Below, piece by piece: positions 10,182 through 25,215 of a stretch of DNA of 64,000 nt. The notes under the pieces are model-generated. The model was not told where the DNA came from. It did not search any database and worked only from the letters and a program-made list of their open reading frames with translations. Each line of letters begins with the position of its first letter. Positions within the stretch are counted from its first letter, which is position 1. Made by a program: the position numbers and the translations under genes. Origin of the DNA: Amycolatopsis rubida (lineage in GTDB: Bacteria; Actinomycetota; Actinomycetes; Mycobacteriales; Pseudonocardiaceae); the NCBI RefSeq assembly GCF_900115345.1, contig NZ_FOWC01000014.1:62001-126000 (forward strand), read 5' to 3'.

Positions 10182-10664
10182 TCATGCGGGCCCCGCAGTC
10201 TCCCCTACTCGGGCCGAGGCCAGGCGGACTGCGTCCAGGATCTTCTCGTATCCCGTGCAGCGACACAGGTTCCCCGCCAACGCCTCGCGGATCTCCGGAT
10301 CCGAAGGGGCACCCGCCCGGTGCACCAGTTCGTGCGCGGCGACGATCAACCCCGGCGTGCAGAAGCCGCACTGCACAGCACCGGCGTCGACGAAGGCTTG
10401 CTGTACCGCGTCCAGCTGGTCGCCGTCCGCGAGGCCTTCTACGGTGCGGACGTTCCTGCCCTCGGCTTGGCCTGCCGCGACCAGGCACGAACACACTGGG
10501 GTACCGTCCAAATACACTGTGCAGGAACCGCATTCGCCTTGTTCGCAGGCGTTTTTCGAGCCCGGCAAACCCAGTTGGTCGCGCAGCACGAAGAGCAGGC
10601 TCTGTCCCTCCCACACCTCGTCGACGGTGCGCGGCTCGTCATTGACAGTGAGGTTCAGGCGCAT
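10182..10664 (-). CDS. (2Fe-2S) subunit of a xanthine-dehydrogenase-type molybdenum hydroxylase
   Basis: Protein of 160 residues from ATG 10664. The N-terminal plant-type ferredoxin domain has CEQGECGSCTVYLDG with a distal CSC. The C-terminal four-helix domain carries CGFCTPG and CRCTGY, together binding two 2Fe-2S clusters. In the XDH/CO-dehydrogenase family this small subunit carries electrons from the molybdenum centre to FAD. Its start overlaps the stop of the FAD subunit by 10 bp, and it is the last gene of the minus-strand unit 14108-10182. The substrate cannot be told from this subunit. Confidence 0.95.
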   Translation of the reverse strand: MRLNLTVNDEPRTVDEVWEGQSLLFVLRDQLGLPGSKNACEQGECGSCTVYLDGTPVCSCLVAAGQAEGRNVRTVEGLADGDQLDAVQQAFVDAGAVQCGFCTPGLIVAAHELVHRAGAPSDPEIREALAGNLCRCTGYEKILDAVRLASARVGETAGPA

Positions 10665-11533
10665 TTCGGCTGCCCGCCTTTCCGATAGTCTTCCCAGGCC
10701 CAGCTCAACGTCCGGCGGGCCAGTACGGCAATCGCGTGGATGCGGTAGTCGGCGCTGCCCCGGACGTCGTCGATCGGGGACGCGGCGCTCGCGGCCAGTT
10801 CGCCGAAGCGGCGGACAACCGTGTCCGGCAGCGGAGTGCGGGAGGTCCACGCATCAGACAGGGCGTCGCGGAGGAAGTCTTCTGCGGCGGTCGCTCGCCG
10901 CGGGGTCGGGGCGGCGGAACCGACGGCGGCGCCTATCCAGCCGGTTTCCGGGGCCAGGTCCAGGGCGAATGAGCACACTGCGATGACCATCGCGTTGCGG
11001 GTGCCGACTTTCGCGAACTGCTGTGGGCCGGTCGCCACCGGGAGGTGGACAGCGGCGATCAGCTCGTCGGGGGCCAGTGCGTTGCGCTTGACGCCTTGGT
11101 AGAACTCTGTCGCCGGGATCAGCCGGGTGCCGCGGACGGACGCGATCTCGATCGTTGCGTCGCAGGCCAGGAGCATCGGGTGGGTGTCGCCGGCGGGAGA
11201 GGCCGCGCCCAGGTTTCCGCCGACGGTGCCCCGGTTGCGGATCTGCGGGGAGCCGACGGTGCGGCTCGCCATCGCCAGGCCGGGGAGGCGAGTGCCTAGC
11301 TCGGTGATGATTCGCGTGTACGACACGCCCGCGCCCAGGCGGATCCGGCCGTCTTTCTCGGTCCACCCGGCCAGGTCCTCGATCCGGGTGAGGTCCAGCA
11401 GCGCGGTCGGGCGGCGGTGGTCGAAGTTGAGTTCGACCAGGACGTCGGTGCCGCCGGCAAGGGGGACGGCGTCCGGGCGGTCGGACTTGGCGGCCAGGGC
11501 TTCGGCCCAGGTCGCGGGGGTCAGGAAATCCAC
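10655..11533 (-). CDS. FAD-binding subunit of molybdenum hydroxylase
   Basis: Protein of 292 residues with the CoxM/XdhB fold. It starts MDFLTPATWAEAL; the FAD pyrophosphate loop is VPLAGGTDVLVELN (about residues 23-36), with a second contact region TVGGNLGAASPAGDT. It passes electrons from the Fe-S subunit to NAD+ or another acceptor. Its stop overlaps the start of the 2Fe-2S subunit, but 250 bp separate it from the upstream large-subunit gene, and that gap is filled with a 28-bp minisatellite. Confidence 0.93.
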   Translation of the reverse strand: MDFLTPATWAEALAAKSDRPDAVPLAGGTDVLVELNFDHRRPTALLDLTRIEDLAGWTEKDGRIRLGAGVSYTRIITELGTRLPGLAMASRTVGSPQIRNRGTVGGNLGAASPAGDTHPMLLACDATIEIASVRGTRLIPATEFYQGVKRNALAPDELIAAVHLPVATGPQQFAKVGTRNAMVIAVCSFALDLAPETGWIGAAVGSAAPTPRRATAAEDFLRDALSDAWTSRTPLPDTVVRRFGELAASAASPIDDVRGSADYRIHAIAVLARRTLSWAWEDYRKGGQPKCA

Positions 11534-11612
11534 GGGGCACCTCCAGGAGGCGGCTGCCGGTCAGGGACGGAAAAGAGGGGCGGGATCGTGGGCCTGGCGA
11601 GGAGCGGGGGGG

Positions 11613-11724
11613 GAGGCCAGGCCAAAGCGGAGCGGGGAGAGAGGCCAGGCCAAAGCGGAGCGGGGAGAGAGGCCAGGCCAAAGCGGAGCGGGGAGAGAGG
11701 CCAGGCCAAAGCGGAGCGGAGAAA
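11613..11724. repeat. 28-bp minisatellite, four copies
   Basis: The unit begins GAGGCCAGGCCAAAGCGGAG and recurs at 11613, 11641, 11669 and 11697; the first three are nearly identical and the last ends in GAGAAA. Because 28 is not a multiple of three, it cannot encode a regular peptide repeat. It lies in the 250-bp gap between the molybdenum and FAD subunit genes of one operon. Confidence 0.9.
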
Positions 11725-11783
11725 AGGCCCCGCCGGACCGCTGCGCACGAGGTGGTCGGCCAGCACGCGAGGGGCCACCGCGC

Positions 11784-14108
11784 TCACGAAGCGGCACGGC
11801 CCTCGGCTAGCGCGATGTCGTCCGGGCGGATGGGGGCGTTCGGCAAGGGCAGGCCGGTCGCGGAGCGGAGGGCGTTCAGGATCGCGGGGGTCGACGACAG
11901 GGTCGGCGGCTCGCCCACGCCGTTCAGGCCGTACGGCGAGTCCGGGTGCGGGAATTCGAACAGGCTGATCGGCATCGGCGGGACGTCCAGCACGGTCGGG
12001 ATCAGGTAGTCCGTGAAGGACGGGTTGCGCACCCGGCCCTCGCGATCGACCAGGATTTCCTCCATCAAAGCCAACCCAAGTCCCTGTACGCTGCCGCCTT
12101 CGATTTGGCCTTCGACGGCCAGCGGGTTCATCGCCTTGCCGACGTCCTGCGCGGTCGCCAGCTCGACTACCTTCACCAAACCCAGTTCGACATCCACGTC
12201 CACCACGGCTCGGTGGGCGGCGAAGGCGAAAGCGATGTGCGCGTTGCCCTGACCGGTTTCCGGGTCGATGCCTTGGGTGGGGCGGTGGTGGTATTCGAAG
12301 GTGTGCGAGACGGTGTCCGAACCTACGAGGTCGGCGATAGGGCACACCGGATCTCCGCCGCTGTCCAGGACGTGGTCATTGCCGAGCGACAGGGCTGAAG
12401 CTGGCAGGCTGCAGGCGTCAGCGGCGCGGCGCAGGAGTTCCCGGGCGATGTGGCGGCAGGCGCCTTGCACGGCGCCGGTCGACATCCACGTCATGCGGGA
12501 AGCGGACGCGGAACCAGCGTCGCCGATGTGGGTGTCGGCGGGGAGGACGACTACCCGGGAAACGCCCAGTTCCGTGCTCGCTACCTGTGACTGCACCGTG
12601 GTGACGCCTTGTCCGCATTCCGCGGCCGCGGTGTGCACCGAGACCACCGGGGCACCGTTCACCACGGTCAAGGCGACTCGGGCCGTCGAAATGTCGTCGA
12701 CGCCTCCGGAGTAGCCGATCGCTTTCACCCCGACCGCGTAGCCGACTCCGCGACGCACCCCCTCGCCGTGCGTCGTGTTGGCGGCTCCGCCGGGCAGGGA
12801 AAGCAAATCCGCAGCACCGGCCGGCGGCAGCGGACGGTCGCGAAGGGCTTGCAGCAGTTCCGCGACCGGGGCTGGGCCGTCGACGGCTTGGCCGGTGGGC
12901 AGGACGGTACCCGTGGTCATGGAGTTGCGGAGGCGCAATTCCATCGGGTCCATGCCTAGTTCGCGCGCCAGTTTGTCCATATTGGACTCGCAGCCGTATG
13001 CCGATTGGACTGCGCCGAAACCGCGCATTGCGCCGCAGGGCGGGTTGTTCGTGAAGACCGCCAGGCCGTCGATTTCGGCATTCGGGACTTCGTACGCGCC
13101 GGTGACGAAATAGCAGGCGTTGGCGATGACTACCGGCGAAGTCGAGGTGTATGCGCCACCGTCCAAAATCAGGCGGGCTTTGACATAGACCAGACGGCCG
13201 TCCTTGGTGGCACCGTGTTCGTAACGCATCTTGGCCGGATGGCGGTGTACGTGGCCGAAGAAGGATTCGTAGCGGTTGTAGGACATCTTGACCGGACGGC
13301 CGAGCCGCAGGGCGAGCATGCAGGCGTGCACGTGGACCGAGAGGTCCTCTCGGCCGCCGAAAGCGCCGCCGACACCTGCCAGGGTCAGTCGCACTTTTTC
13401 TGTTGGCAAGCCCAGACACGGGGCCAGTTGTTCGAGGTCTTTGTGCAGCCATTGCGAGGAAACGTAGAGTTCGACGCCACCGTCCTCGGAAGGAATCGCC
13501 AGGCCGGATTCCGGGCCCAGGAAAGCCTGGTCCTGCATGCCGACTTCGTACTCGCCGGTGACGACGACATCCGCTTCGGCGCGGGCTCGTGCCGGATCGC
13601 CGTGCCGGATTTTCACGTGCCGCACCAGGTTGCCGTCCGGATGAATCGGGCGGACGCCCTTGTCCAGGACCGTCGTCGGATCGGTGACCGGGTCAAGCGG
13701 TTCGTAGTCGACGATGATCAGTTTCGCCGCCTGACGGGCGGTTTCCGGGTCGTCGGCGGCGACCAGCGCCACCGGTTCGCCGTGGTAGCGGACCTCGTCG
13801 ACGGCGAGGACCGGCTGATCGGCGGATTTCATGCCATACGTTTTCGCACCGGGCACGTCCTCGTGGGTGAGCACGGCGTGCACGCCTGGCTGGGCGAGGG
13901 CCTTGCTCGTGTCGACGGACCGGATCCGCGCTGCCGCGTACGGGCTGCGCAGCGTGGTCGCCCAGACCATGCCCTCGATCCACAAATCCGACGAATAGGC
14001 GAACCTGCCGGTCACCTTGGCGGTGCCGTCCGGACGGAGGGCGCTTTCGCCCACCCCGGCGGCTTTCCCGGTTTCCGCGGCGCGTACCAGCGAGTCCACA
14101 GTGACCAC
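11784..14108 (-). CDS. Molybdopterin-binding large subunit, xanthine dehydrogenase family
   Basis: Protein of 774 residues; GTG 14108 has AGGAAAG about six bases upstream. The aldehyde oxidase/XDH hammerhead domain occupies the N-terminus (GTAKVTGRFAYSSDL). The cofactor-binding domains show GVGGAFGGRED (about residue 240), PCGAMRGFGAVQ (about 345) and the catalytic glutamate region GVGEPP near the C-terminus. It hydroxylates an N-heteroaromatic ring or aldehyde with water. Purine is the commonest substrate, but this architecture also serves pterins, pyrimidines and other azaarenes. It is first in the minus-strand unit and divergent from the LacI gene, which sits 82 bp away. Confidence 0.93.
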   Translation of the reverse strand: MVTVDSLVRAAETGKAAGVGESALRPDGTAKVTGRFAYSSDLWIEGMVWATTLRSPYAAARIRSVDTSKALAQPGVHAVLTHEDVPGAKTYGMKSADQPVLAVDEVRYHGEPVALVAADDPETARQAAKLIIVDYEPLDPVTDPTTVLDKGVRPIHPDGNLVRHVKIRHGDPARARAEADVVVTGEYEVGMQDQAFLGPESGLAIPSEDGGVELYVSSQWLHKDLEQLAPCLGLPTEKVRLTLAGVGGAFGGREDLSVHVHACMLALRLGRPVKMSYNRYESFFGHVHRHPAKMRYEHGATKDGRLVYVKARLILDGGAYTSTSPVVIANACYFVTGAYEVPNAEIDGLAVFTNNPPCGAMRGFGAVQSAYGCESNMDKLARELGMDPMELRLRNSMTTGTVLPTGQAVDGPAPVAELLQALRDRPLPPAGAADLLSLPGGAANTTHGEGVRRGVGYAVGVKAIGYSGGVDDISTARVALTVVNGAPVVSVHTAAAECGQGVTTVQSQVASTELGVSRVVVLPADTHIGDAGSASASRMTWMSTGAVQGACRHIARELLRRAADACSLPASALSLGNDHVLDSGGDPVCPIADLVGSDTVSHTFEYHHRPTQGIDPETGQGNAHIAFAFAAHRAVVDVDVELGLVKVVELATAQDVGKAMNPLAVEGQIEGGSVQGLGLALMEEILVDREGRVRNPSFTDYLIPTVLDVPPMPISLFEFPHPDSPYGLNGVGEPPTLSSTPAILNALRSATGLPLPNAPIRPDDIALAEGRAAS

Positions 14109-14136
14109 CAGCTTTCCTGCGTTGCCGACCGCACGG

Positions 14137-14165
14137 ATTCAACACGTGTAGATCGGGACTGTCAA
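14137..14165 (-). promoter_or_regulatory. Promoter of the molybdenum hydroxylase operon with embedded LacI-type site
   Basis: Read on the minus strand, TTGACA (14165-14160), a 17-bp spacer and TTGAAT (14142-14137) make a near-consensus sigma-70-type promoter. The perfect palindrome ACACGTGT (14142-14149) lies at the 3' end of the spacer, where a LacI-family dimer would block polymerase. The LacI gene begins at 14191 on the other strand. Confidence 0.6.
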
Positions 14166-14190
14166 CGGCTCTTCGGGTATCGTCCGGCGC

Positions 14191-15186
14191 ATGCAGCGGG
14201 TCACCCGGGACGATGTCGCACGGCTGGCGGGCACCTCGCCGGCCGTGGTCAGTTACGTGCTCAACAACGGCCCGCGTCCGGTCGCGCCCGCCACGCGAGC
14301 GCGGGTCGAACAAGCGATCGCCGAGCTCGGCTACCGGCCGAATCTCGTCGCGCGGGCGTTACGCTCCACCCGCAGCAACGTGCTCGGGCTGGTCGTGCCG
14401 GACAGCAGCGAGGGCTACTTCACCCAGCTCACCCATGCGGTCGAGCGGGCCGCGTTCGCTCGCGGATCCCTGGTGCTGCTCGGGAATTCGGCGTTCTCCC
14501 GGGATCAGGAGCTGCGGTACGCCGAATCGCTGGCGAACATGCGCGTGGACGGTCTGCTGCTGGTCCGCGCCGAGGTCGCCGGAGCGGCGGCCACCCACTC
14601 CGCTTTGGACGTTCCGGTCGTCTACCTGCATCACCACGCCCCGGCCGGCACTGCCGCGCCGTCGGTGGTGCTGGACAACAAAACGGGCGGACGGTTGACC
14701 ACCGAACACCTGCTCGGGCACGGCTACCGGGAGATCGGCTGCCTCACCGGAACCGCGCGGTCCGGGCCGGTGGCCGAGCGGGCCCGAGGCTGGACCGAGG
14801 CGATGCGGGCGGCGAAGCGGAGCGCGGGCAACGTCGTCCGCACCGGTCTCGATCGGCATGCCGCACGGGCCGACATCCGGCGTTGGTTGCAGTCGCCGGA
14901 GCGGCCGCGCGCGATCATGGCGACGGCGGACGGGCTGGCGCTCGACACGCTGACGGTCGCGGCGGAACTCGGCTTGAGCGTGCCGAAAGACCTTGCGGTG
15001 ATCGGCTTCGGCGGCACCGACGCCGCCGCGCACAGCTGGCCCGCGCTGTCCACTGCCGGACATTCCTTCGACGATTTCGCCGACGCCGCGGTGTCCACTC
15101 TGGACCAGCTCCGCGACAACACCCAGCCGGAAGACCGCATCCTCGACGTCCGCCTGACCGCGCGCGCCAGCTGCGGGTGCGACTGA
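14191..15186 (+). CDS. LacI family transcriptional regulator
   Basis: Protein of 331 residues. The N-terminal headpiece is VTRDDVARLAGTSPAVVSYV with hinge helix PNLVARALRSTRSNVLGLVV, followed by a periplasmic-binding-protein-like effector domain (VPDSSEGYFTQL; MATADGLALDTL; VIGFGGTDAA). Such regulators usually repress catabolic genes and release DNA on binding the substrate or an intermediate. It is divergent from the molybdenum hydroxylase operon and convergent with the amidohydrolase gene (25-bp gap). A CAACAC(G/A)TG motif occurs in both adjacent intergenic regions, suggesting one regulon. Confidence 0.92.
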   Translation: MQRVTRDDVARLAGTSPAVVSYVLNNGPRPVAPATRARVEQAIAELGYRPNLVARALRSTRSNVLGLVVPDSSEGYFTQLTHAVERAAFARGSLVLLGNSAFSRDQELRYAESLANMRVDGLLLVRAEVAGAAATHSALDVPVVYLHHHAPAGTAAPSVVLDNKTGGRLTTEHLLGHGYREIGCLTGTARSGPVAERARGWTEAMRAAKRSAGNVVRTGLDRHAARADIRRWLQSPERPRAIMATADGLALDTLTVAAELGLSVPKDLAVIGFGGTDAAAHSWPALSTAGHSFDDFADAAVSTLDQLRDNTQPEDRILDVRLTARASCGCD

Positions 15187-15211
15187 ACTCGCAACTGACG
15201 CGCCGACGGAA

Positions 15212-16195
15212 TCAGGAGTTAGCGGCCTCTGCCCACGCTGAAGGCGTATAGCCGAGATAATGCGACGCGTGCGTATTCGCCGCGGAAGCCTGCGGAAGGT
15301 CGCCGCGCAAGTACGCCTCGGCTTCCGCCTTGTCCTTCGGCGGCGGCGTCGGCGCGAGGCCGAGCAGCTTGGCCATGTTGTTGCCGAGGTAGCCCTCCAG
15401 GTCGTCCTCGGACAGGTTCAGGCCCTGCGGCGGCTGGTGGCACAGCACTTCCAGCTCCCGCGCCCACATGCCGGGCTCGTTCGGCGGCGAATCGGTGCCG
15501 AAGACCAGGTCGCTCTTCTTCATCTCCTTGGCGAATTCGACGATCCGCGACTGCAGCAGCCAGCCCGATTCGCCGATCACGTTCGGCGAGTCCTGGATCA
15601 TCCAGAACGCCTCGAAACAGTAGACGCCGCCGGTCTGGATGCCGAAATGGCCGAGAATGAACGTGACGTTCGGGAACTCGCGGATGATCGGGTAGAACTG
15701 GGTCGGGATCGAGTACGGCCCGTCCCCGGTGTGGATCAGCACGATCACGCCGAGTTCGTCGCACACCCGCAGCACCGGCCGCAGCCAGTCCAGCGCCCGG
15801 TCCGGGCGGTAGGAGTGCATGTTGGCGTGCAGCTTCAGCATCTTGTAGCCGTATTCCTTCACGTGGAAGGCCAGCTCCGCCGCGCCGTTTTCCGGCCCGA
15901 ACCGCGGGTTGTACATGAAGTTGCCGACGAACCGGTCCGGATACCGCTGCACCAGCGAGGTCACGTACGCCTGGTATTCGCGGATGCCTTCACGGCCGGT
16001 TTTGTTGCCCTCGCGCCAGGTCGTGTTGCCCGGCGGCGGCATGATGCAGCTGACGTCCACGCGCCGCGGCTTGCCGTTGATCCAGAATGGACCGTCCATC
16101 ATTTCCAGCGTGCGCTCGCCGGTGAACGGGGTTCCGGTGTGCCGCCAGGCTTCGTCGACGAGATTCGTCGGATGGACATGGGTATCGATAATCAC
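15212..16195 (-). CDS. Amidohydrolase-2 (ACMSD-like) family metal enzyme
   Basis: Protein of 327 residues; GTG 16195 is preceded by AAGGAGA. The TIM-barrel metal motif DTHVHP is at residues 4-9, with KLHANMH mid-sequence, LGHFG (about residue 205) and the terminal FGTDSPPNEP aspartate. The family contains hydrolases and non-oxidative decarboxylases such as ACMSD and isoorotate decarboxylase. In this cluster either ring opening or decarboxylation of a heteroaromatic acid would fit; I cannot decide. It is divergent from the deaminase operon, sharing a 340-bp control region. Confidence 0.8.
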   Translation of the reverse strand: MIIDTHVHPTNLVDEAWRHTGTPFTGERTLEMMDGPFWINGKPRRVDVSCIMPPPGNTTWREGNKTGREGIREYQAYVTSLVQRYPDRFVGNFMYNPRFGPENGAAELAFHVKEYGYKMLKLHANMHSYRPDRALDWLRPVLRVCDELGVIVLIHTGDGPYSIPTQFYPIIREFPNVTFILGHFGIQTGGVYCFEAFWMIQDSPNVIGESGWLLQSRIVEFAKEMKKSDLVFGTDSPPNEPGMWARELEVLCHQPPQGLNLSEDDLEGYLGNNMAKLLGLAPTPPPKDKAEAEAYLRGDLPQASAANTHASHYLGYTPSAWAEAANS

Positions 16196-16317
16196 CGGAT
16201 GTCTCCTTACGCAAGACTTGAGTAAAGGACTCCCCGGCCGCGCTTCACCGCACCTACGGGACCCGGAAGCGCGATCCGCGCTCCGGCGCAACCGAGTGCA
16301 ACATCTTCGCCGCCCGG

Positions 16318-16323
16318 TGTCAA
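16318..16323 (-). promoter_or_regulatory. Possible -35 box and LacI half-site for the amidohydrolase gene
   Basis: TTGACA on the minus strand overlaps a CAACACATGATCG stretch (16321-16333) resembling CAACACGTGTAGATCG at the xdh promoter (14140-14155). No good -10 is visible, so the promoter itself is weakly supported. Confidence 0.35.
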
Positions 16324-16373
16324 CACATGATCGCCGGATGCGTTGCGCGGCAAGACTTTTCCAGACGATGCTC

Positions 16374-16402
16374 TTGACACCGGTGCCGCGAGGGCTTTGC
16401 AT
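16374..16402 (+). promoter_or_regulatory. Candidate promoter of the deaminase-permease-UbiXD operon
   Basis: TTGACA (16374-16379), a 17-bp spacer and TTGCAT (16397-16402) precede the deaminase gene by 134 bp. The remaining leader up to 16535 is GC-rich with no recognised riboswitch. Confidence 0.5.
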
Positions 16403-16535
16403 TGAACGACCCGGCGGTGCTGCCGGGCGCCGGTGACCTCCCGTTTCGGGCCAACCGTTCGGCCAAGTGCCTCCAGCCGCGCGCTGGAGACGACCGCCGG
16501 GCCGGGTCCGACCCCGCCCGGGGAAGGGCGGCCCG

Positions 16536-17942
16536 ATGTCGGCTGCGGAACCGGAACCCTGCGATCTCCTGCTGACCGGCGGCACCGTGGTGACCGTCGA
16601 CGACCAGCGCACTGTCCACGACAACGGCCACGTCGCGATCATCGGCGGCCGGATCGCCGGGGTCGGCGAAGGACCTGGCACCGAGCGCTGGCACGCCGCC
16701 GAGGTCATCGACTGTCGCGGGAAAGCCGTGCTGCCCGGTCTGGTCGACGGGCACAACCACCTCTACCAGGCGCTCGCTCGCGGGCTCGGCGAAGGCATGT
16801 CGATCGTGCCGTGGCTGTGCGAGTTCATGTGGCCGTATTCGATCGCGATCACCGGGCCCGAAGCAGTGGCCGGGGCACGGCTCGGCGCGGTCGAAGCGTT
16901 GCGGGCCGGCATCACGACGGTGATCGACAACCATTACGCGCCAAGCGATCTTGAAACGACGCTCGCCGTCGCCGACGTCATCGAGGAGGCCGGGCTGCGC
17001 GGTGCGGTCGCGCGCGGCATGCTGGGCGAACGCACCGAAATCGCCGATCGCCGAGGACAGCCGATCGAGCTGTTCCGCTATTCCAGCGAGGACGAATTCG
17101 CGATCACCCGCGAGGCGATGGAGCACCGGCCGCCGGCCGCCAAGGTCGCGGTGTGGCCCGCCGCGCTCAACCTCTGTTACGTGGAGCAAAAACTCGTCCG
17201 CCGGACGGTCGAACTGGCCCGGGAATTCGGCACTCGCTGGCACACCCATTGCTGCGAGAGCGAAACCGATCCGGTCAGCTACCTCGAAACCCACGGGGTG
17301 CGGCCGGTCGAATGGCTCGCGAAAGAAGGCCTGCTCGACGAACGGGCCACGCTCGCGCACGCGATTTGGCTCGACGAAGCCGAAATCGAGCAGGTCGCGG
17401 CAACCGGCGCGGGAGTTTCGCACAACCCGGCGTCCAACGGCTACCTCGCGTCCGGTACCGCGCGGATCGCGAGCATGCGCAAGCAGCACGTCCCGGTCGC
17501 GCTGGGCACCGACGGTCCCAGCTGCGGCCATCGGCAAGATCTTTTCGAGGCCATGAAACTCAGCGTCTTCGGCCAGCGAACGGCCACTTTGGACCCGACG
17601 GCGCTGCGGGCCGAGGACGCGCTGGAAATGGCCACCCGCGATGGGGCCCGTTACGCCGGAATCGACGCGGGCGTGCTGAGCGAGGGCAAACTCGCCGACG
17701 TCATCGTGACCGCGCTCGACCGTCCGCACGTGCGCCCGGTGCACCGGGCGGTCGCCGCGCTCGTCTACTCCGCCCGCGGGTCCGATGTGGAGCTGACGAT
17801 CGTGGGCGGGGAGATCGTCTACCGCGCCGGACAGTGCGTCCGCGTCGACGAAGCGGCCGCCGCCGACGAAGCGGAACGGCACGCGGCCCGGCTGCTGGAA
17901 CGCAGCGGCATGGGCGGACTGCTCACTCCCTGGGCGCGGTGA
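16536..17942 (+). CDS. COG0402-type amidohydrolase (nucleobase/heteroaromatic deaminase)
   Basis: Protein of 468 residues; ATG 16536 follows a GGGGAAGGG ribosome site. It has the composite beta-sandwich plus TIM-barrel layout: VDGHNHLYQALARG (first two metal histidines, about residue 70), WHTHCCESETD (about 235), TLAHAIWLDEAEI, GVSHNPASNG, and VALGTDGPSCGHRQD (metal aspartate, about 325). The family includes guanine, 8-oxoguanine, cytosine, isoxanthopterin and S-adenosylhomocysteine deaminases and s-triazine hydrolases. The CGHRQD sequence after the aspartate differs from the usual SxSND form. Next to two NCS2 permeases and an XDH, ring deamination is the best guess. First gene of the operon running to 23873. 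Confidence 0.85.
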   Translation: MSAAEPEPCDLLLTGGTVVTVDDQRTVHDNGHVAIIGGRIAGVGEGPGTERWHAAEVIDCRGKAVLPGLVDGHNHLYQALARGLGEGMSIVPWLCEFMWPYSIAITGPEAVAGARLGAVEALRAGITTVIDNHYAPSDLETTLAVADVIEEAGLRGAVARGMLGERTEIADRRGQPIELFRYSSEDEFAITREAMEHRPPAAKVAVWPAALNLCYVEQKLVRRTVELAREFGTRWHTHCCESETDPVSYLETHGVRPVEWLAKEGLLDERATLAHAIWLDEAEIEQVAATGAGVSHNPASNGYLASGTARIASMRKQHVPVALGTDGPSCGHRQDLFEAMKLSVFGQRTATLDPTALRAEDALEMATRDGARYAGIDAGVLSEGKLADVIVTALDRPHVRPVHRAVAALVYSARGSDVELTIVGGEIVYRAGQCVRVDEAAAADEAERHAARLLERSGMGGLLTPWAR

Positions 17943-17977
17943 TCCGCGCTCCCCCTTTCCCCGCTGTGGAGGAAACC

Positions 17978-19339
17978 ATGCGATTCCGTCCGCGCACCAC
18001 CCGAGCCGAAGCCACCACCCGCGACGCGGTCGACACCGTCCCCCGGTTCCGGCAGATGCTCCCGCTCGGCATCCAGCACCTGCTGGTCGCCTATTCCGGA
18101 ATGGTCACCGTCCCGCTGCTGATCGGGCTCGGCGTCGGCCTGTCCACCGCGCAGATCGCCACGCTTGTCACGGCGAACGTGCTGGTCAGCGGCATCGCGA
18201 CGCTATTGCAGACGCTCGGGATCGGCAACGTCGGCGTCCGGCTGCCGATCGTGATGGGCTCGACCTTCACCGGCATCACCCCGGCCATCATCGTCGGCAA
18301 GGAGGCCGGGCTGCCCGCGGTCTTCGGCGCGACGATCGTCGCCGGACTGCTGACCTGGCTGGTCGCGCCGTGGTTCAGCAAGCTGATCCGGTTCTTCCCG
18401 CCGATCGTGACCGGGACGATCATCGCGATCATCGGATTTTCGCTGCTGCCCTCCACCGCGACGCTGATCGCCGGGTCCAACCCCAGTGCGTCCGACCACG
18501 GTTCGGCCGGACGGCTGATTCTCGGGCTGGGCACCATCGCGGCGACGGTCTGTTTGGAACGGTTCGCCCCGCCCGCAGTGCGCCGTTTCGCGATCCTGAT
18601 CGCGCTGGCCGCCGGCACTCTCGTGGCGATTCCGCTCGGCATGGCCGACTTCAGCTCGGTCGGGCAGGCGGACTGGGTCGGCCTCGTCAAGCCCTTCGAG
18701 TTCGGCCTGCCGACGTTCGCGTTGTCCGCGTTGCTGCCGATGATCATCGTGCAGCTGGTGAACATGGTGGAATCGACCGGCGACACGCTCGCCATCGGGC
18801 AGATCGCCGGCCGCGCCGTCGGACCGCGCGAGATTTCCCGGGCGCTGCGCGCGGACGGGATCGGCACCGCGTTCGCGGGCGTTTTCGGCTCGTTCACCGT
18901 CGTCACCTTCGGCGAGAACGTCGGGCTGGTCAGCATCACCCGTGTGATGAGCCGGTTCGTGGTGGCCACCGCGGGCGCGGTGCTGGTGCTCATGAGCCTG
19001 GTGCCGAAACTCGGCGCGGCCGTCGCGTCGCTGCCCGGGCCGGTGCTCGGCGGCGTCGGCGTGGTCATGTTCGGCACTGTCGGAGCGGTCGGCCTGCGCA
19101 TCATGAGCCAGGCGGATCTGAGCAACGGCCGCAATATCCTGATCGTCGCCATCTCGTTCGGCTTCGGGCTGCTGCCGGTCGGCGCGCCGGAGTTCTACCA
19201 GCATCTGCCGGTTGTCGTGCAGACCGTGCTGACGAGCGGCATCGCCGCCGGCGGCATCGCGGCGTTCCTGCTGAACCTCGTGCTCAACCGCCGCGAGCGG
19301 GCTCCGCGCACCGGGCCGGAAGCCGCGCCCGGGTATTGA
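17978..19339 (+). CDS. NCS2 (nucleobase:cation symporter-2) permease, uracil-type signature
   Basis: Protein of 453 residues; ATG 17978 follows GGAGGAAACC. Fourteen hydrophobic segments are expected for the UraA fold. TM1 has GIQHLLVAYSG, TM8 VNMVESTGDTLAIGQ and TM10 the NAT signature GENVGLVSITR. The leading E and terminal R of that signature are those of UraA-type uracil permeases, while VESTGD in TM8 is more purine-like. It takes up a base-like molecule with protons. It is 35 bp downstream of the deaminase gene and 211 bp before a second NCS2 gene of different signature. Confidence 0.92.
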   Translation: MRFRPRTTRAEATTRDAVDTVPRFRQMLPLGIQHLLVAYSGMVTVPLLIGLGVGLSTAQIATLVTANVLVSGIATLLQTLGIGNVGVRLPIVMGSTFTGITPAIIVGKEAGLPAVFGATIVAGLLTWLVAPWFSKLIRFFPPIVTGTIIAIIGFSLLPSTATLIAGSNPSASDHGSAGRLILGLGTIAATVCLERFAPPAVRRFAILIALAAGTLVAIPLGMADFSSVGQADWVGLVKPFEFGLPTFALSALLPMIIVQLVNMVESTGDTLAIGQIAGRAVGPREISRALRADGIGTAFAGVFGSFTVVTFGENVGLVSITRVMSRFVVATAGAVLVLMSLVPKLGAAVASLPGPVLGGVGVVMFGTVGAVGLRIMSQADLSNGRNILIVAISFGFGLLPVGAPEFYQHLPVVVQTVLTSGIAAGGIAAFLLNLVLNRRERAPRTGPEAAPGY

Positions 19340-19550
19340 CCCTCGGCGGCTTCCGATGCACCATAGTCGAAACTCCTTGCAGGGAAGGAAAAATCTTCGG
19401 ACATCCCCTAACCCCGTAGGTGCGGCGGCAGGATTCGCGCGCGGCCGGGGGTCATCGCCGCCGGCAGCCCGTCCGGCTCCGGCGACGCCCCGCGATCCGC
19501 CCGGCCCGGCCGTTTGCCCGGCCCCGCCGGCCCAACGAGGTGAGGGAATC

Positions 19551-20912
19551 ATGGCCAGTCACCCGTCTCCCCCGTCCCCGGTGGACGAACGTCCCCGATT
19601 CGGCCCGCTGGTGCTGCTGGGTTTGCAGCACGTGCTCGTGATGTACGCCGGTGTCGTCGTGGTGCCGATCGTGGTCGGCGCCGGACTCGGGCTGCCGCAG
19701 TCGCAGATCGCCGACCTGGTCAGCGTCGACCTGGTGCTCGCCGGGATCGGCACCATGCTGCAGGCGTTCGGCGTCTGGAAATTCGGCATCCGGATGCCGC
19801 TCGTGGTCGGTGCCGCGTCCAACGGAATCGTCCCGATGGTGCTGATCGGCAGCACGCAGGGGCTGTCCACAGTGTATGGCTCGCTGCTCGTGGTCGGCGT
19901 GGTCTGGGTGCTGATCGCGCCGTTGTTCAGCAAACTGCTCAAGCTGTTCCCGGAAGTCGTCACCGGAACCGTCATCACCTTGATCGGGCTGACCCTGATT
20001 CCGGTCGGGCTGAAGCTCATCGCCGGTTCCGATCCGTCCGCGCACAACTACGGTGCGCCAGCGAATCTCGCGCTCGCCGGGTTCACGCTCGCGCTGATCG
20101 CGGTGTTCTACCGGGTGTTTCGCGGTCTGCTCGGCCAGCTCGCGATGCTGATCGCGCTGACCGTCGGGGCGATCGTCGGCTGGCTGACCGGGCTGGGCTC
20201 TCTCGCCGGAGTCGCCAACGGCCCCGTTTTCGGATTGCTGAAACCACTGCACTACGGAGCGTTGCATTTCGACATTCCGTCAATTCTGCTGTTCCTGGTG
20301 ATCGTTTTCGTGCTGATGGTCGAGGCGTCCGGACAGGGCCTCGCCGTCGGGCAGGTGGTCGGCAAGAAGGTCGGACCGCGCGACATCGCCAATCTGCTCC
20401 GGGTGGACGGACTGCTCACCGCACTCAGCGGCGTGTTCAACGGTTTCGCCTACACCACCTTCGGCCAGAACATCGGACTCGTCGCGCTGACGAAGGTGCG
20501 CAGCCGGTATCCGGTCGCGGTCGGCGGGGTGATTCTCATCGTTTTCGGGGTGGTGCAACCGGTCGGCCGGGTGATCGCGGCGATCCCGCAACCAGTGATC
20601 GGCGCGGCCGCGGTCGCCACGTTCGCGGCGCTGACCGTGTCCGGCATTCAGCTGCTGTCCCGAGTGGACTTCAACCAGACCGGCAATCTGGTGATCGTCA
20701 TGCTGTCGCTCGGCGTCGGCCTGATCCCGGCTGGCGCCCCGGACTTCTACCAGCAGTTTCCCTTTGCCGCTCAAGTTTTCCTCAAGAGCGGCGTGGCTAC
20801 CGGAACCGTACTGGCGGTCCTGCTGAATCTGCTTTTCTTCGCTGTCCGGAAACGACGGCCGGAAGAACCGCTCGTGCACCGAGAACCCGCCGCAAAGCTT
20901 TCCCAGTCCTGA
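19551..20912 (+). CDS. NCS2 permease, purine-type signature
   Basis: Protein of 453 residues; ATG 19551 follows GAGGTGAGGG. The membrane pattern matches the neighbour (GLQHVLVMYAG in TM1). The TM10 NAT signature is GQNIGLVALTK, with Q instead of E, as in xanthine/urate carriers. TM8 reads VLMVEASGQGLAVGQ, where the aspartate after SG is replaced by Q. The two permeases therefore probably carry different ligands, for instance substrate and a related base or product. Nine bases separate it from the UbiX gene, so it belongs to the same operon. The 211-bp gap upstream could hold an extra promoter, but none is clear. Confidence 0.92.
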   Translation: MASHPSPPSPVDERPRFGPLVLLGLQHVLVMYAGVVVVPIVVGAGLGLPQSQIADLVSVDLVLAGIGTMLQAFGVWKFGIRMPLVVGAASNGIVPMVLIGSTQGLSTVYGSLLVVGVVWVLIAPLFSKLLKLFPEVVTGTVITLIGLTLIPVGLKLIAGSDPSAHNYGAPANLALAGFTLALIAVFYRVFRGLLGQLAMLIALTVGAIVGWLTGLGSLAGVANGPVFGLLKPLHYGALHFDIPSILLFLVIVFVLMVEASGQGLAVGQVVGKKVGPRDIANLLRVDGLLTALSGVFNGFAYTTFGQNIGLVALTKVRSRYPVAVGGVILIVFGVVQPVGRVIAAIPQPVIGAAAVATFAALTVSGIQLLSRVDFNQTGNLVIVMLSLGVGLIPAGAPDFYQQFPFAAQVFLKSGVATGTVLAVLLNLLFFAVRKRRPEEPLVHREPAAKLSQS

Positions 20913-20921
20913 AAGGGCGTC

Positions 20922-21527
20922 ATGGGCACCGAACCGCAGCGGCCCCGGCTGATCGTCGGCATCACCGGGGCCAGCGGACCGCACCTGGCTGTCCACCTGC
21001 TGACCGCGCTGCGCGAGCTCGGCACGGTGGAAACGCATCTGGTCATGTCGCGAGCCGCGCACCGCACCATCGAACTGGAAACCGGCATGCCGCCCGCCGA
21101 GGTCGCCGAACTGGCCGACGTCCGCCATGCGCGCGGGGACATCGCCGCGTCGATCGCGTCCGGTTCCTTTCGCACCATGGGCATGGTCGTCGTGCCGTGC
21201 TCGATGAAAACCGTCGCCGGGATCGCCCACGGCTACAGCGACGAGCTGCTCGTGCGCGCCGCCGACGTCACGCTGAAAGAACGCCGTCCGCTCGTGCTGG
21301 TGGCCAGGGAGACCCCGTTGAGCCTCGTGCACCTGCGCAATCTGGTGGCGGTGACCGAGGCGGGCGCGACCGTGCTGCCGCCGGTACCCGCCTTCTACCA
21401 CCAGCCCGAGTCCATTGAGGACATCCTCGCCCACCTGAGCGGCAAGGTGCTCGACCAGTTCGGCATCGAGAACGAACTGTTCGCGCGCTGGCAGGGGCCG
21501 CCCGTCTCGCAAGGAGTTTCGCGGTGA
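20922..21527 (+). CDS. ubiX: UbiX-like flavin prenyltransferase
   Basis: Protein of 201 residues of the UbiX/Pad1 flavoprotein fold. It has IVGITGASGPHLAVHLL (FMN-binding loop, residues 10-26), the central VVVPCSMKTVAGIAHGYSDELLVRAADVTLKERRPLVL, and PAFYHQPESIEDI near the C-terminus. UbiX attaches a dimethylallyl group to FMN, making prenyl-FMN, the cofactor of UbiD decarboxylases. The next gene is a UbiD whose GTG start overlaps this stop by 4 bp, so the pair is self-contained. ATG 20922 has GAAAGGG upstream. Confidence 0.93.
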   Translation: MGTEPQRPRLIVGITGASGPHLAVHLLTALRELGTVETHLVMSRAAHRTIELETGMPPAEVAELADVRHARGDIAASIASGSFRTMGMVVVPCSMKTVAGIAHGYSDELLVRAADVTLKERRPLVLVARETPLSLVHLRNLVAVTEAGATVLPPVPAFYHQPESIEDILAHLSGKVLDQFGIENELFARWQGPPVSQGVSR

Positions 21528-22879
21528 ACCAGGATCCGCACGCTTTCCTCGCCCAGTATCGCCGCGATTTTCCCGAAGACGTGCTCGTCCTCGACGATCC
21601 CGTCCCGGCCGACGAGGGCGTCACCGGGGTGATTTACGAACTCGCCGCGGCCGGACGGCACGAGATGGTGCTGTGCCGGAAGGTGACCGGACTTGACGTG
21701 CCGGTGGTCAGCAACATGTTCGCTTCGCGGCAACGCATCGCGCGCATGCTCGAAACCGGACCGTCCGGTTTGCACAGTGCCTACCAGCAGCGAGCACTCC
21801 GGGCGGTGCCGCCGCGAGCGGTCGACAGCGGGCCGGTGCTGGACGACGTGACAACGGATGTCGACGTGGCGGCCATCCCGATGCTCCGGCACTTCGCCAG
21901 CGACCGCTCCCGCTACGTCACCAGCGGAATCATCGTCGCGGAGGATCCGGACACCGGCGTCGGCAACCTGAGCTATCACCGGGCGATGCCGCATTCCCGC
22001 ACCGAACTGGCGACCAGTCTCCATTCTCGCGGGGATCTGTGGCGGATGCTGCAAAAGTACGCCGAACGCGGCGAGCCGATGCCGGTCGCGATGGTGCTCG
22101 GCGGACATCCGTTGTTCATGCTGGCCGCGTCCGCGCGAGTCGGCTACGACGTGGACGAGCGCGCGGTGGCCGGCGGGCTGTTCGGCGAACCGCTGGAACT
22201 CGTGCGTACCCCGCGGCACGGCATCGGCGTCCCGGCTTGGTCGGACTTCGTGCTGGAAGGCACGATCGACGCCTCCGAGCACGCGGACGAAGGCCCGTTC
22301 GGCGAGTTCTCCGGCTATTCCTCGAATCGCTCGACCAACAACCTGCTCCGCGTCCAGACCGTCCTGCGCCGCTCCGACGCCATGCTCATCGACGTCGTCG
22401 GCGGCAATACTGACGAGCATCTGAACCTCGCGCGGGTGCCACGAGAATCGGAGATGGCGGAGAAACTCAGAGCGCGCTTCCCGGACGTCACCGCCGTGCA
22501 CTATCCGACGTCCGGCACGCACTTCCATTGCTACGTCGCGCTACGCCAGCGACGACCGGGTCAAGCCCGGCAGGTAATGCTCGGCCTGCTCGGCTGGGAC
22601 CCGTATGTGAAGACCGTGATCGCGGTGGACGAAGACGTCGACGTCACCAGTGACAGCGCCGTCCTCTGGGCACTCGCCACGCATTTCCAGCCGCACCAGG
22701 ACTTGTTCACTGTGGACGGTCTGCCCGGCTCGCCGCTCGACCCGTCCTCGGGCTCCGACGGCACGACGTCCCGGATGGGCCTGGACGCGACCCGCGGCCC
22801 GCACTTCGACGGCAACCGCATTGTCGTCTCCGCGGAAGCACGCCAGCACGCTCGCCGGATTCTCGGCGGGAACGTTTAA
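21524..22879 (+). CDS. ubiD: UbiD family prenyl-FMN-dependent (de)carboxylase
   Basis: Protein of 451 residues. Family hallmarks include [37 protein letters not shown], and the active-site block [14 protein letters not shown] (about residues 247-260), which carries the conserved glutamates. [20 protein letters not shown] and [23 protein letters not shown] (metal/prFMN binding) follow. UbiD enzymes remove or add CO2 on aromatic, heteroaromatic or acrylic acids. Its placement with NCS2 permeases, a deaminase and a molybdenum hydroxylase implies an N-heteroaromatic carboxylic acid, an inference from context. Translationally coupled to ubiX (GTGA overlap). Confidence 0.93.
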
Positions 22880-22892
22880 GGAGGGAATCATC

Positions 22893-23873
22893 ATGGCCAC
22901 AATCCCGGTGACCGTACTGACCGGCTTTCTCGGCTCCGGCAAGACCACGCTCGTCAACCACATCCTCACCGCGAACCACGGGCACCGGATCGCGGTGATC
23001 GAGAACGAGTTCGGCGAGATCCCGATCGACAACGCGCTCGTGCTCGGCGGCGACGAGAAGATCATCGAAATGAGCAATGGCTGCTGCCTGTGCTGCACCG
23101 CGCGCACCGATCTGATCGAAATCCTGCAGTCGCTGCTGCGCCGCCGCGAACAGTTCGACCGGATTCTCATCGAGACCAGCGGCATGGCCGATCCGAACCC
23201 GGTCGCGCAGACGTTCTTCGTGGACGACGAGGTGTCTTCGGCCTTCGCGCTGGACGCGATCGTGACGCTGGTCGACGCGCGGCACGTCGGCAGCCATCTC
23301 CAGGAGGGCGAACACGACGGGGTCGGCGGCCAGGTGAGCAACCAGATCGCGTTCGCCGACCGGATCGTGCTCAACAAGATCGACCTGGTCACCGCGCCGG
23401 AAATCGAGGAACTGCGCACGCGGCTTCGCTCGGTCAACGCGACCGCGGACATCCTCACCTCCACCTACGGCAGCGTTGACCTGGACGACATCCTCGGCAT
23501 CAACGCCTTCGACCTGAACCGCACCGTCGCGGCCGACCCGGACTGGCTCGAAGACGAATCGCACCACCACGACCCGACGCTGGAATCGGTGTCCATCGAA
23601 CTCGACTATCCCCTGGACCGCACCGCGTTCGAGCAGTGGCTCACCGCTTTGCTGGCCGAACGCGGCGACGACCTGTACCGGTTCAAGGGAATCCTCGCCT
23701 TCGACCGCAAGACGGTGCTGCAGGGCGTGCATCGGATCTACGAACTGACCGATGCCGGTGAATGGGGCGCCACGCCCCCGGTCAGCAAGCTCGTCCTCAT
23801 CGGCCGGAACCTCGACCGCACGGAGCTGACCGGCACCGTGTCCCATTGCAGTTTGGCCGCGGCCGGGCAGTGA
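22893..23873 (+). CDS. COG0523 (CobW/G3E) GTPase, putative metallochaperone
   Basis: Protein of 326 residues from ATG 22893 (AAGGAGGG upstream). Walker A is [11 protein letters not shown], the Cys-rich metal site is GCCLCCTA (about residues 64-71, the CxCC type), ETSGMADP follows, and the guanine motif is NKID. A histidine stretch (ESHHHDP, about 221-227) separates the CobW C-terminal domain. COG0523 proteins deliver zinc, cobalt or other metals to client enzymes. Here the likely clients are the operon's metal-dependent deaminase or the amidohydrolase rather than cobalamin synthesis, because the gene is the last member of the catabolic operon and lies 27 kb from the cob genes. Confidence 0.9.
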
Positions 23874-24249: not shown

Positions 24250-25215
24250 ATGCGCAGGACCATCGACTGGGCCGACGGGGCGATCGTGATCGTGGACCAG
24301 GTCGCGCTTCCGGGCGAGTACCGCACGCTCACGCTGCGCACGGTGACCGAGCTGGTCGACGCGATCCAGCGACTGGCCGTCCGCGGAGCACCGGCGTTGG
24401 GAGCGGCGGGCGCTTTGGGGGTCGCGCTGGCGGCCCGTCAGGGCGGGGATGTGCGGGCGGAGGCGGACCGGATCGCGCACGCCCGGCCGACGGCGGTCAA
24501 CCTGGCTTGGGGCGTTTCCCGGGCACTGGACCGGTTGCCCGACGGCGCCGACGCGGTGCTCGCGGAGGCACAAGCGATGCTCGACGAGGACGAGCAGCGC
24601 AACCGCGCGGCGTCGGCGAACGCGGCGGAGGTCGTGCTGGGTGCGTGCCCGCGCAGGCCGTTGCGGCTGCTCAGCCACTGCAACGCCGGGCACTTGGCGA
24701 CCGTCGCGTGGGGCACCGCGCTCGGGGTCGTCTGGCACCTGCACGCACGCGGACTGGTGGAATCGGTGCTGGTGGACGAGACACGGCCATTGCTGCAGGG
24801 GTCCCGGCTGACCGCTTGGGAACTCGAGCAGGCCGGAGTGCCCTACCGCGTGCAGCCGGACGGCGCGGCGGCCGCGGCGATGGCGCGCGGACTGGTCGAC
24901 TGTGTGCTGGCCGGCGCGGACCGGATCGCGGCGAACGGCGACGTGGCCAACAAAATCGGCACCTACGGGTTGGCCATTTCGGCCGCGCACCACGGTGTTC
25001 CGTTCGTGGTGGTCGCACCGACGTCCACAGTGGACAAAAGCATCGCCGCCGGGACGGACATCGACATCGAGGAACGTGCGCCGTCCGAGCTGACGGAGTT
25101 CGGCGGGGCGCGGGTCGCGCCGAAGGGGGCGGCGGTGTTCAACCCGGCCTTCGACGTCACGCCGGCAGCGCTCATCACCGCGGTGGTCACCGAGGACGGC
25201 GTGTTCCGTTCGTGA
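24250..25215 (+). CDS. mtnA: MtnA-like S-methyl-5-thioribose-1-phosphate isomerase
   Basis: Protein of 321 residues; ATG 24250 follows GGGAGGAC. It belongs to the aIF2B/MtnA aldose-ketose isomerase family: VRGAPALGAAGALG (substrate-binding loop, about residues 44-57), SHCNAGHLATVAWGTALG with the catalytic cysteine (about residue 142), VDETRPLLQGSRLTAWEL, and LAGADRIAANGDVANKIGTY with the catalytic aspartate. MtnA converts methylthioribose-1-phosphate to the ribulose form in methionine salvage. No other salvage genes adjoin, so related phosphates such as 5-deoxyribose-1-phosphate are possible. Confidence 0.88.
   Translation: MRRTIDWADGAIVIVDQVALPGEYRTLTLRTVTELVDAIQRLAVRGAPALGAAGALGVALAARQGGDVRAEADRIAHARPTAVNLAWGVSRALDRLPDGADAVLAEAQAMLDEDEQRNRAASANAAEVVLGACPRRPLRLLSHCNAGHLATVAWGTALGVVWHLHARGLVESVLVDETRPLLQGSRLTAWELEQAGVPYRVQPDGAAAAAMARGLVDCVLAGADRIAANGDVANKIGTYGLAISAAHHGVPFVVVAPTSTVDKSIAAGTDIDIEERAPSELTEFGGARVAPKGAAVFNPAFDVTPAALITAVVTEDGVFRS

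Follow-up and report, generated by a model that had tools for sequence, protein, structure and literature searches.

Gene content of the island

The window analysed here, a stretch of 64,000 nucleotides from the soil bacterium Amycolatopsis rubida (NZ_FOWC01000014.1, positions 62,001 to 126,000 of the forward strand), carries a catabolic island at positions 10182-23873. Its signature gene encodes an amidohydrolase-2 protein (hereafter AH2), accompanied by genes for a molybdenum (Mo) hydroxylase, a deaminase, two permeases, UbiX, UbiD, a GTPase and a regulator. We propose, with a probability of about 0.6, that the island encodes the breakdown of pterins to a purine by way of ring contraction. 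Gene families were called with the Pfam and NCBIfam cut-offs (COG numbers are given as equivalents), and one or other of these databases confirmed every family that the original prediction had named from the DNA sequence. The genes of the island were as follows:

10182-10661, minus strand: molybdenum hydroxylase iron-sulphur (Fe-S) subunit (PF01799 and PF00111; best NCBIfam match XdhC_XDHase, 173 bits, below its cut-off of 217)
10655-11533, minus strand: molybdenum hydroxylase flavin adenine dinucleotide (FAD) subunit (PF00941 and PF03450; no NCBIfam model at its cut-off)
11784-14054, minus strand: molybdenum hydroxylase Mo subunit, pucD type (TIGR03196, 848.6 bits, cut-off 783.65)
14191-15186, plus strand: LacI-family regulator (PF00356 and PF13377)
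15212-16195, minus strand: AH2, between the LacI and deaminase genes (PF04909, 127.7 bits)
16536-17942, plus strand: COG0402-type deaminase (PF01979)
17978-19339, plus strand: NCS2 permease no. 1 (TIGR03173, 463.6 bits, cut-off 414.15)
about 19545-20912, plus strand: NCS2 permease no. 2 (longer open reading frame 19356-20912; TIGR03173, 433.9 bits, cut-off 414.15)
20922-21527, plus strand: UbiX flavin prenyltransferase (NF004685, 266.6 bits, cut-off 188; TIGR00421, 236.3 bits, cut-off 108.9)
21524-22879, plus strand: UbiD-family decarboxylase (PF01977; TIGR00148, 279 bits, cut-off 244.85)
about 22890-23873, plus strand: CobW/COG0523-type GTPase (PF02492 and PF07683)

Conservation of the gene set in two phyla

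The source genome is 9.9 Mb in size, and its UbiD was 96%, 94% and 93% identical to those of A. nivea, A. dendrobii and A. orientalis, respectively. For the comparison of gene content, the best 80 of 151 UbiD relatives were taken (63-96% identity to the window UbiD): 20 loci were actinobacterial and 60 proteobacterial, mainly from Pseudomonas and Burkholderiaceae. Genes were counted with tblastn, since some of the heuristic (GC-position) open reading frame calls were wrong or over-long. In the 64 untruncated loci (15 actinobacterial, 49 proteobacterial), AH2, ubiX, COG0523 and NCS2 genes were each found 64 times, the deaminase gene 63 times (exception L050, within 10 kb) and the Mo subunit gene 63 times (exception L067). 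With the truncated loci included, the actinobacterial counts out of 20 were: AH2 18, UbiX 19, COG0523 20, NCS2 19, deaminase 18 and Mo subunit 18; the proteobacterial counts out of 60 were: AH2 60, UbiX 60, COG0523 56, NCS2 56, deaminase 55 and Mo subunit 51.

Actinobacterial and proteobacterial clusters did not share the same gene order; in L148 and L151, UbiX, COG0523, NCS2 and deaminase genes followed one another in this order. The grouping of the island genes is thus a conserved unit, not a chance assembly, and it recurs in two phyla in different orders. Gene content was also established for 37 of 53 Burkholderiaceae loci, where the counts were: tandem AH2 pair 37, UbiD 37, UbiX 36, COG0523 35, NCS2 36, Mo subunit 29 and deaminase 15.

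Between the phyla, the proteobacterial proteins were 63-68% (UbiD) and 67-74% (the AH2 copy that keeps its metal ligands) identical to those of the window, compared with 26-32% for the deaminase and 24-27% for the Mo subunit. AH2 and UbiD are therefore the best-conserved pair, whereas the families serving the other steps would be represented by different members from clade to clade.

Co-occurrence of AH2 and UbiD

Because the 80 loci had been picked by UbiD, co-occurrence was counted in independent genome samples. Within the window's own family, UbiD of at least 74% identity was found in 18/390 genomes and AH2 (E<=1e-40) in 18/386, the 18 genomes being identical; 23 further genomes had only UbiD relatives of 32-39% identity (E<=1e-60). 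Among Burkholderiaceae, AH2 (E<=1e-60) and UbiD (E<=1e-100) were each found in 53/249 genomes, again the identical 53. Discordant genomes were found in neither sample. The original prediction had treated the genes as one functional unit; scattered relatives were looked for, and what was found instead was a conserved set, the genomes with AH2 being also those with UbiD.

A sample of 396 genomes drawn from the whole phylum had AH2 in one of 395 other genomes, that of a distant member of the phylum (G828, 81% complete). A single 16.5-kb contig of this genome encoded AH2 (78% identity), a UbiD ortholog (60%), UbiX (60%), the Mo subunit (68%) and the Fe-S subunit (64%), together with a GntR regulator, an ATP-binding cassette transporter ATPase, an NMT1/THI5-type binding protein and a COG0402 deaminase with 30% identity to both other cluster deaminase types. 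AH2 and UbiD are kept together in this genome, and the deaminase and importer are exchanged. The contig holds a second UbiD-family gene (L152:5167-6528, minus strand), 32% identical to the window UbiD (TIGR00148, 319 bits, cut-off 244.85). Replacement of UbiD by this relative was considered and rejected: the contig encodes the 60% ortholog as well, so that this gene is an additional one.

Catalytic residues and nearest relatives of AH2 and UbiD

Residues H6, H8, H155, H183 and D235 of AH2 were invariant in 18/18 actinobacterial sequences and in 60/60 of the second proteobacterial copies (p2). We take them to be the HxH, H and D metal ligands and the catalytic histidine of the ACMSD type. In the first proteobacterial copy (p1), encoded just upstream of the other (e.g. 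L093:7890-8816, plus strand), the HxH motif was replaced by S and Y in 60/60 sequences and K121 and H123 by Q and Q. This copy has lost HxH, yet is well conserved, and is therefore probably a metal-less partner subunit; in proteobacteria, AH2 may be a heteromer in which an active subunit is paired with a metal-less one.

At E<=1e-60, AH2 belonged to no NCBIfam family, and a phmmer search against solved sequences gave 0 matches; in a profile search LigW came first (24 bits). The structure model of AH2 was of modest quality (mean predicted local distance difference test score, pLDDT, 70.4), and the 50 Foldseek matches listed for it, with identities of 12-18%, included LigW, 2,6-dihydroxybenzoate decarboxylase, ACMSD, IDCase and the hydratase LigJ.

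The window UbiD contained three Pfam domains, all over their cut-offs (PF01977, 187 bits; PF20696, 115 bits; PF20695, 35.5 bits). R153, E256 and E261 were invariant in 21 aligned sequences and present in at least 97% of 81; these presumably correspond to the catalytic Arg-Glu-Glu triad of Fdc1. The closest solved proteins were 6h6v and AnInD (7p9q), with 193 bits to the nearest. We take 6h6v to be HmfF, the furan-dicarboxylate enzyme, and both proteins to act on heteroaromatic acids. UbiX makes prenylated flavin mononucleotide (FMN).

Deaminases and molybdenum hydroxylases

For two proteobacterial cluster deaminases the best solved match was 2PAJ (Pseudomonas L093, 456 bits; Burkholderia L072, 464 bits), the next solved protein scoring 299 and 306 bits, respectively. 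The PDB label of 2PAJ is 'putative cytosine/guanine deaminase'; we take it to be the deaminase that Hall et al. reported in 2010 to act on isoxanthopterin. Deaminases from the Sargasso Sea in that study are tied to isoxanthopterin and pterin-6-carboxylate (PMC5270733). Three proteobacterial cluster deaminases were members of PRK12393 (781-801 bits, cut-off 543), a family that is listed, with NMT1/THI5-like genes, downstream of xanthine/urate riboswitches (PMC7373994). Of five cluster deaminases scanned, none passed the cut-off for guanine deaminase or 8-oxoguanine deaminase in those cases where the model was listed, and for the window deaminase none of the 25 NCBIfam matches listed reached its cut-off. 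From its position in the cluster only, the window deaminase is proposed to be a pterin deaminase.

The cluster Mo subunit scored 305 bits against the classical xanthine dehydrogenase (XDH) model TIGR02965, below the cut-off of 849.5. A classical XDH is encoded elsewhere in the same genome (938 bits to this model), so that the cluster hydroxylase is a second, non-classical enzyme. We propose that its Mo subunit belongs to a pterin or lumazine hydroxylase, distinct from the classical XDH of the genome.

Xanthine and urate genes near the clusters

A classical XDH gene directly adjoined the cluster in Nocardia colli (L034, 919 bits) and Georgenia (L044, 963 bits; cut-off 849.5), and an XDH gene of the same sequence cluster stood beside the island genes in L049. 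All three loci also carried a XdhC-type maturation gene with the XDH gene (called with Pfam for the L049 copy and by clustering for the others). The cluster of Pseudonocardia kunmingensis (L043, L155) is continued by genes for NCS2, hydroxyisourate hydrolase, uricase and PucR, then for a further Mo-hydroxylase, a protein over the 8-oxoguanine deaminase cut-off and allantoinase; the further Mo-hydroxylase, the separate 8-oxoguanine deaminase-type gene and the allantoinase gene lie in L155:3382-9181. The FAD and Fe-S subunits of this locus (68% and 76% identical to those of the window) are encoded there too, at a distance from the Mo gene of the cluster. Such neighbours were a minority: XDH was found in 3/15 and the uricase set in 1/15 untruncated actinobacterial loci.

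Elsewhere, the genome of A. rubida encodes a classical XDH and two uricases, and a classical XDH over the cut-off was found in 11 of the 13 cluster genomes tested. Given these genes in its own genome and beside some clusters, xanthine is a natural outlet for the proposed pathway.

Proposed pathway from pterin to purine

Pterins provide the rings of folates and of insect pigments. Their breakdown was reportedly followed in Alcaligenes faecalis by McNutt and by McNutt and Damle in the 1960s, from isoxanthopterin through violapterin, tetrahydroxypteridine and xanthine-8-carboxylate to xanthine; the ring-contracting step became Enzyme Commission number (EC) 5.5.1.3. We propose that the island encodes this chemistry. 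The NCS2 permeases, both of which exceed the curated cut-off of the xanthine permease subfamily (TIGR03173), would take up a lumazine or an oxidised pterin. Inside the cell, the COG0402 deaminase would convert the 2-amino to a 2-oxo group (isoxanthopterin to violapterin), and the molybdenum hydroxylase would oxidise the last pyrazine carbon, giving 2,4,6,7-tetrahydroxypteridine.

UbiD being a decarboxylase by family chemistry, AH2 is left for the ring contraction, and we propose it as the tetrahydroxypteridine cycloisomerase EC 5.5.1.3. As a divalent-metal amidohydrolase, it would direct a metal-bound water at the oxamide-like pyrazine ring and open it; the freed amine would then reclose on the remaining carbonyl to give xanthine-8-carboxylate, a net isomerisation. 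UbiD, with prenylated FMN from UbiX, is proposed to decarboxylate xanthine-8-carboxylate to xanthine, which classical XDH and then uricase, encoded elsewhere in the genome, would take to urate. The COG0523-type GTPase is a candidate supplier of the metal, presumed divalent, to the amidohydrolases.

Tetrahydroxypteridine and xanthine-8-carboxylate appear as alternative assignments of one mass (PMC5941619), as isomers must. EC 5.5.1.3 was listed in 2007 among 228 orphan activities (PMC1940265) as one without a sequence, and so offers no reference for a comparison with AH2.

According to the original prediction, the genes would degrade a base-like heteroaromatic carboxylic acid. The kind of compound, and the pterin and oxidised purine among its candidates, agree with our results; the acid as the imported substrate is less well supported, and it is probably an internal intermediate. 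An imported pterin with an internal carboxylate fits better with the 2PAJ-type deaminases of the proteobacterial clusters, the dedicated AH2 and the xanthine/urate neighbours of some clusters.

That AH2 is the orphan tetrahydroxypteridine cycloisomerase and that UbiD is the first enzyme to use prenyl-FMN on a carboxylated purine, with bacteria of at least two phyla feeding pterins into urate metabolism, seems to us slightly better than an even chance. If true, this would provide genes for EC 5.5.1.3, for decades a reaction without a sequence, and for the decarboxylase that follows it, extend prenyl-FMN chemistry to purines and explain a nameless amidohydrolase family. It would also account for the way in which bacteria regain nitrogen from pterins, whether from insect pigments or from the waste of folate and biopterin, and the trait of pterin use could be recognised in genomes simply by AH2.

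Evidence against the proposed pathway and alternative explanations

Several observations weigh against the proposed pathway. The window deaminase was nearest to AtzA among solved proteins (188 bits; 2PAJ, 111 bits) and scored 186 bits against PRK12393 (cut-off 543). Of the 15 untruncated actinobacterial loci, only 6 had an FAD subunit gene and only 5 an Fe-S subunit gene within 10 kb, and in L154, L156, L158 and L160 the Mo gene did not have these two genes next to it. Eight of the 37 Burkholderiaceae loci, two of them cut short, yielded no Mo-hydroxylase; the six full or near-full-length loci without it in the cut were L111, L113, L115, L132, L134 and L135. Elsewhere in these six genomes, a Pseudomonas-type Mo subunit was found at 64-66% identity in two and at 47-48% in three, and none at E<=1e-100 in one.

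The deaminase was likewise absent from the cut in 22 of the 37 Burkholderiaceae loci, mostly as an effect of the cut-off. A true lack of the gene in 20 of these loci was rejected: in 16 of the genomes a deaminase gene shared the contig of ubiD but lay 10-14 kb away, just outside the cut, and in 3 it was on another contig. Across the 23 Burkholderiaceae genomes tested, 21 had a deaminase whose identity to the Pseudomonas type was 66% or more. G628 had a 39% match only and no ortholog, which also counts against the pathway; G536, whose locus is cut at a contig end, had a partial 53% match, and G632 lay outside the tested set. On the G828 contig, NCS2 and COG0523 genes were not found, and the second UbiD-family gene there perhaps serves a second decarboxylation. 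The proposed pathway leaves the metal-less proteobacterial AH2 paralog without explanation, and no cycloisomerase was among the 50 Foldseek matches listed for AH2. Finally, no Rfam riboswitch was found at gathering scores in the window and the 25 loci scanned.

Given the modest model and its decarboxylase and hydratase neighbours, AH2 may itself be a decarboxylase. It would then act non-oxidatively in the manner of ACMSD, LigW and IDCase, with UbiD working at another carboxyl position; the substrate would be a heteroaromatic dicarboxylic acid, whose ring would not be contracted. The Foldseek neighbours LigW, 2,6-dihydroxybenzoate decarboxylase, ACMSD and IDCase speak for this explanation, as does LigW at the top of the profile search, but at 12-18% identity and 24 bits the similarity is marginal, and with the LigJ hydratase among the neighbours the clan is not bound to one kind of chemistry. 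We know of no natural pterin or purine dicarboxylate, and since AH2 is tied to a separate decarboxylase, decarboxylation by AH2 would be redundant; we consider this explanation quite improbable. A less improbable, though still doubtful, substrate is an imported pterin- or lumazine-6-carboxylate, a folate breakdown product: UbiD would act first, followed by the deaminase and the Mo-hydroxylase, and AH2 would open the ring hydrolytically. This needs the identical gene set, suits the nearest solved UbiD proteins, 6h6v and AnInD, which we take to be heteroaromatic-acid enzymes, and would allow the second UbiD-family gene of G828 to mean two decarboxylations in some strains. The deaminases of Hall 2010 are reported to act on isoxanthopterin and on pterin-6-carboxylate (PMC5270733). 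However, the xanthine/urate neighbours of some clusters would be left unexplained, and the strict tie of an AH2 ring opening to UbiD would have no reason.

The divergence of the deaminases between clades (26-32% between phyla, 30% in G828) would suit another purine- or pyrimidine-like heteroaromatic, for example of the deazapurine or isoorotate type, degraded in the same layout of deamination, hydroxylation, opening and decarboxylation. The 2PAJ-type deaminase of proteobacterial clusters and the xanthine/urate outflow genes beside some actinobacterial ones argue otherwise, and we think such a substrate very improbable. We give least credence of all to ordinary purine catabolism by a guanine or 8-oxoguanine deaminase, XDH and xanthine permeases, with ubiXD acting on an unrelated phenolic acid and sharing only regulation. 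The original prediction had named this guanine/xanthine route as its alternative, and the Mo subunit passing the pucD model and both permeases passing the xanthine permease cut-off are in its favour. It leaves unexplained the constant pairing of UbiD and AH2, perfect in two samples, and the separate classical XDH of the window's own genome, and was rejected on these grounds; in addition, 0/5 scanned deaminases passed the guanine/8-oxoguanine cut-off in the cases where that model was listed, and L155 has a separate 8-oxoguanine deaminase-type gene.

Regulatory and flanking genes

A lacI match was found in 8/20 actinobacterial loci and a GntR/FCD gene in 11 (by sequence clustering, with Pfam on one member). 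Control of the clusters by the Rfam xanthine riboswitch was considered and dropped, no riboswitch having been found in the window and 25 loci; the scan yielded three transfer RNAs only, in L042. A search for a shared operator in two divergent intergenic regions gave no convincing common palindrome.

Ahead of the island lies a PIG-L/GlcNAc deacetylase family gene (PF02585, 8626-9486), for which mycothiol S-conjugate amidase is perhaps the product, as a guess. Directly 3' of the island is an S-methyl-5-thioribose-1-phosphate isomerase gene (24253-25215; TIGR00512, 381 bits, cut-off 279); it was matched in only 3/20 actinobacterial loci, all three from Amycolatopsis, and is therefore probably outside the island. 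A cytochrome P450 gene (PF00067, 25483-26673, minus strand) follows beyond it. After the cluster of some Burkholderiaceae there is a PF17645 gene (arylmalonate decarboxylase / Asp-Glu-hydantoin racemase; L056:16168-16899, L116:12489-13238). Some Pseudomonas clusters are followed by genes for an NCS1-type permease, a carbamoylase-type M20 peptidase and an amidohydrolase (L085:18871-20391, L093:17725-19029, L105:11798-13237), families that recur in 18, 18 and 13 loci, respectively.

Comparison with known systems

The original prediction knew of no described pathway with the full gene set. As regards genes, our results agree: no gene assignment for the pterin pathway was found in the literature searched, which covered few subscription journals; the chemistry itself was reportedly described in the 1960s. 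The predicted order of steps in the island is the same as that reported for the isoxanthopterin pathway of McNutt, namely deamination, hydroxylation, contraction to xanthine-8-carboxylate and decarboxylation to xanthine. That pathway is known, so far as found, only as activities, whereas AH2 and UbiD are here proposed as its missing genes, and our reading gives the decarboxylation to prenylated FMN. Two proteobacterial cluster deaminases resemble the presumed isoxanthopterin deaminase 2PAJ, whereas the window deaminase belongs to another branch of COG0402.

The window UbiD shares its family and the R-E-E triad with the prenyl-FMN heteroaromatic decarboxylases 6h6v and AnInD but stands in a subfamily of its own, which goes with AH2 and base catabolism. 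Similarly, AH2 is predicted to resemble the ACMSD-type enzymes (LigW, LigJ, 2,6-dihydroxybenzoate decarboxylase and IDCase) in fold and metal-ligand set, but differs from them in its 12-18% identity and in lacking an NCBIfam family. Genes of bacterial purine catabolism adjoin the cluster in Pseudonocardia kunmingensis, Nocardia and Georgenia; the ordinary purine route, however, has no place for UbiD and AH2, and the Mo-hydroxylase of the cluster is non-classical.

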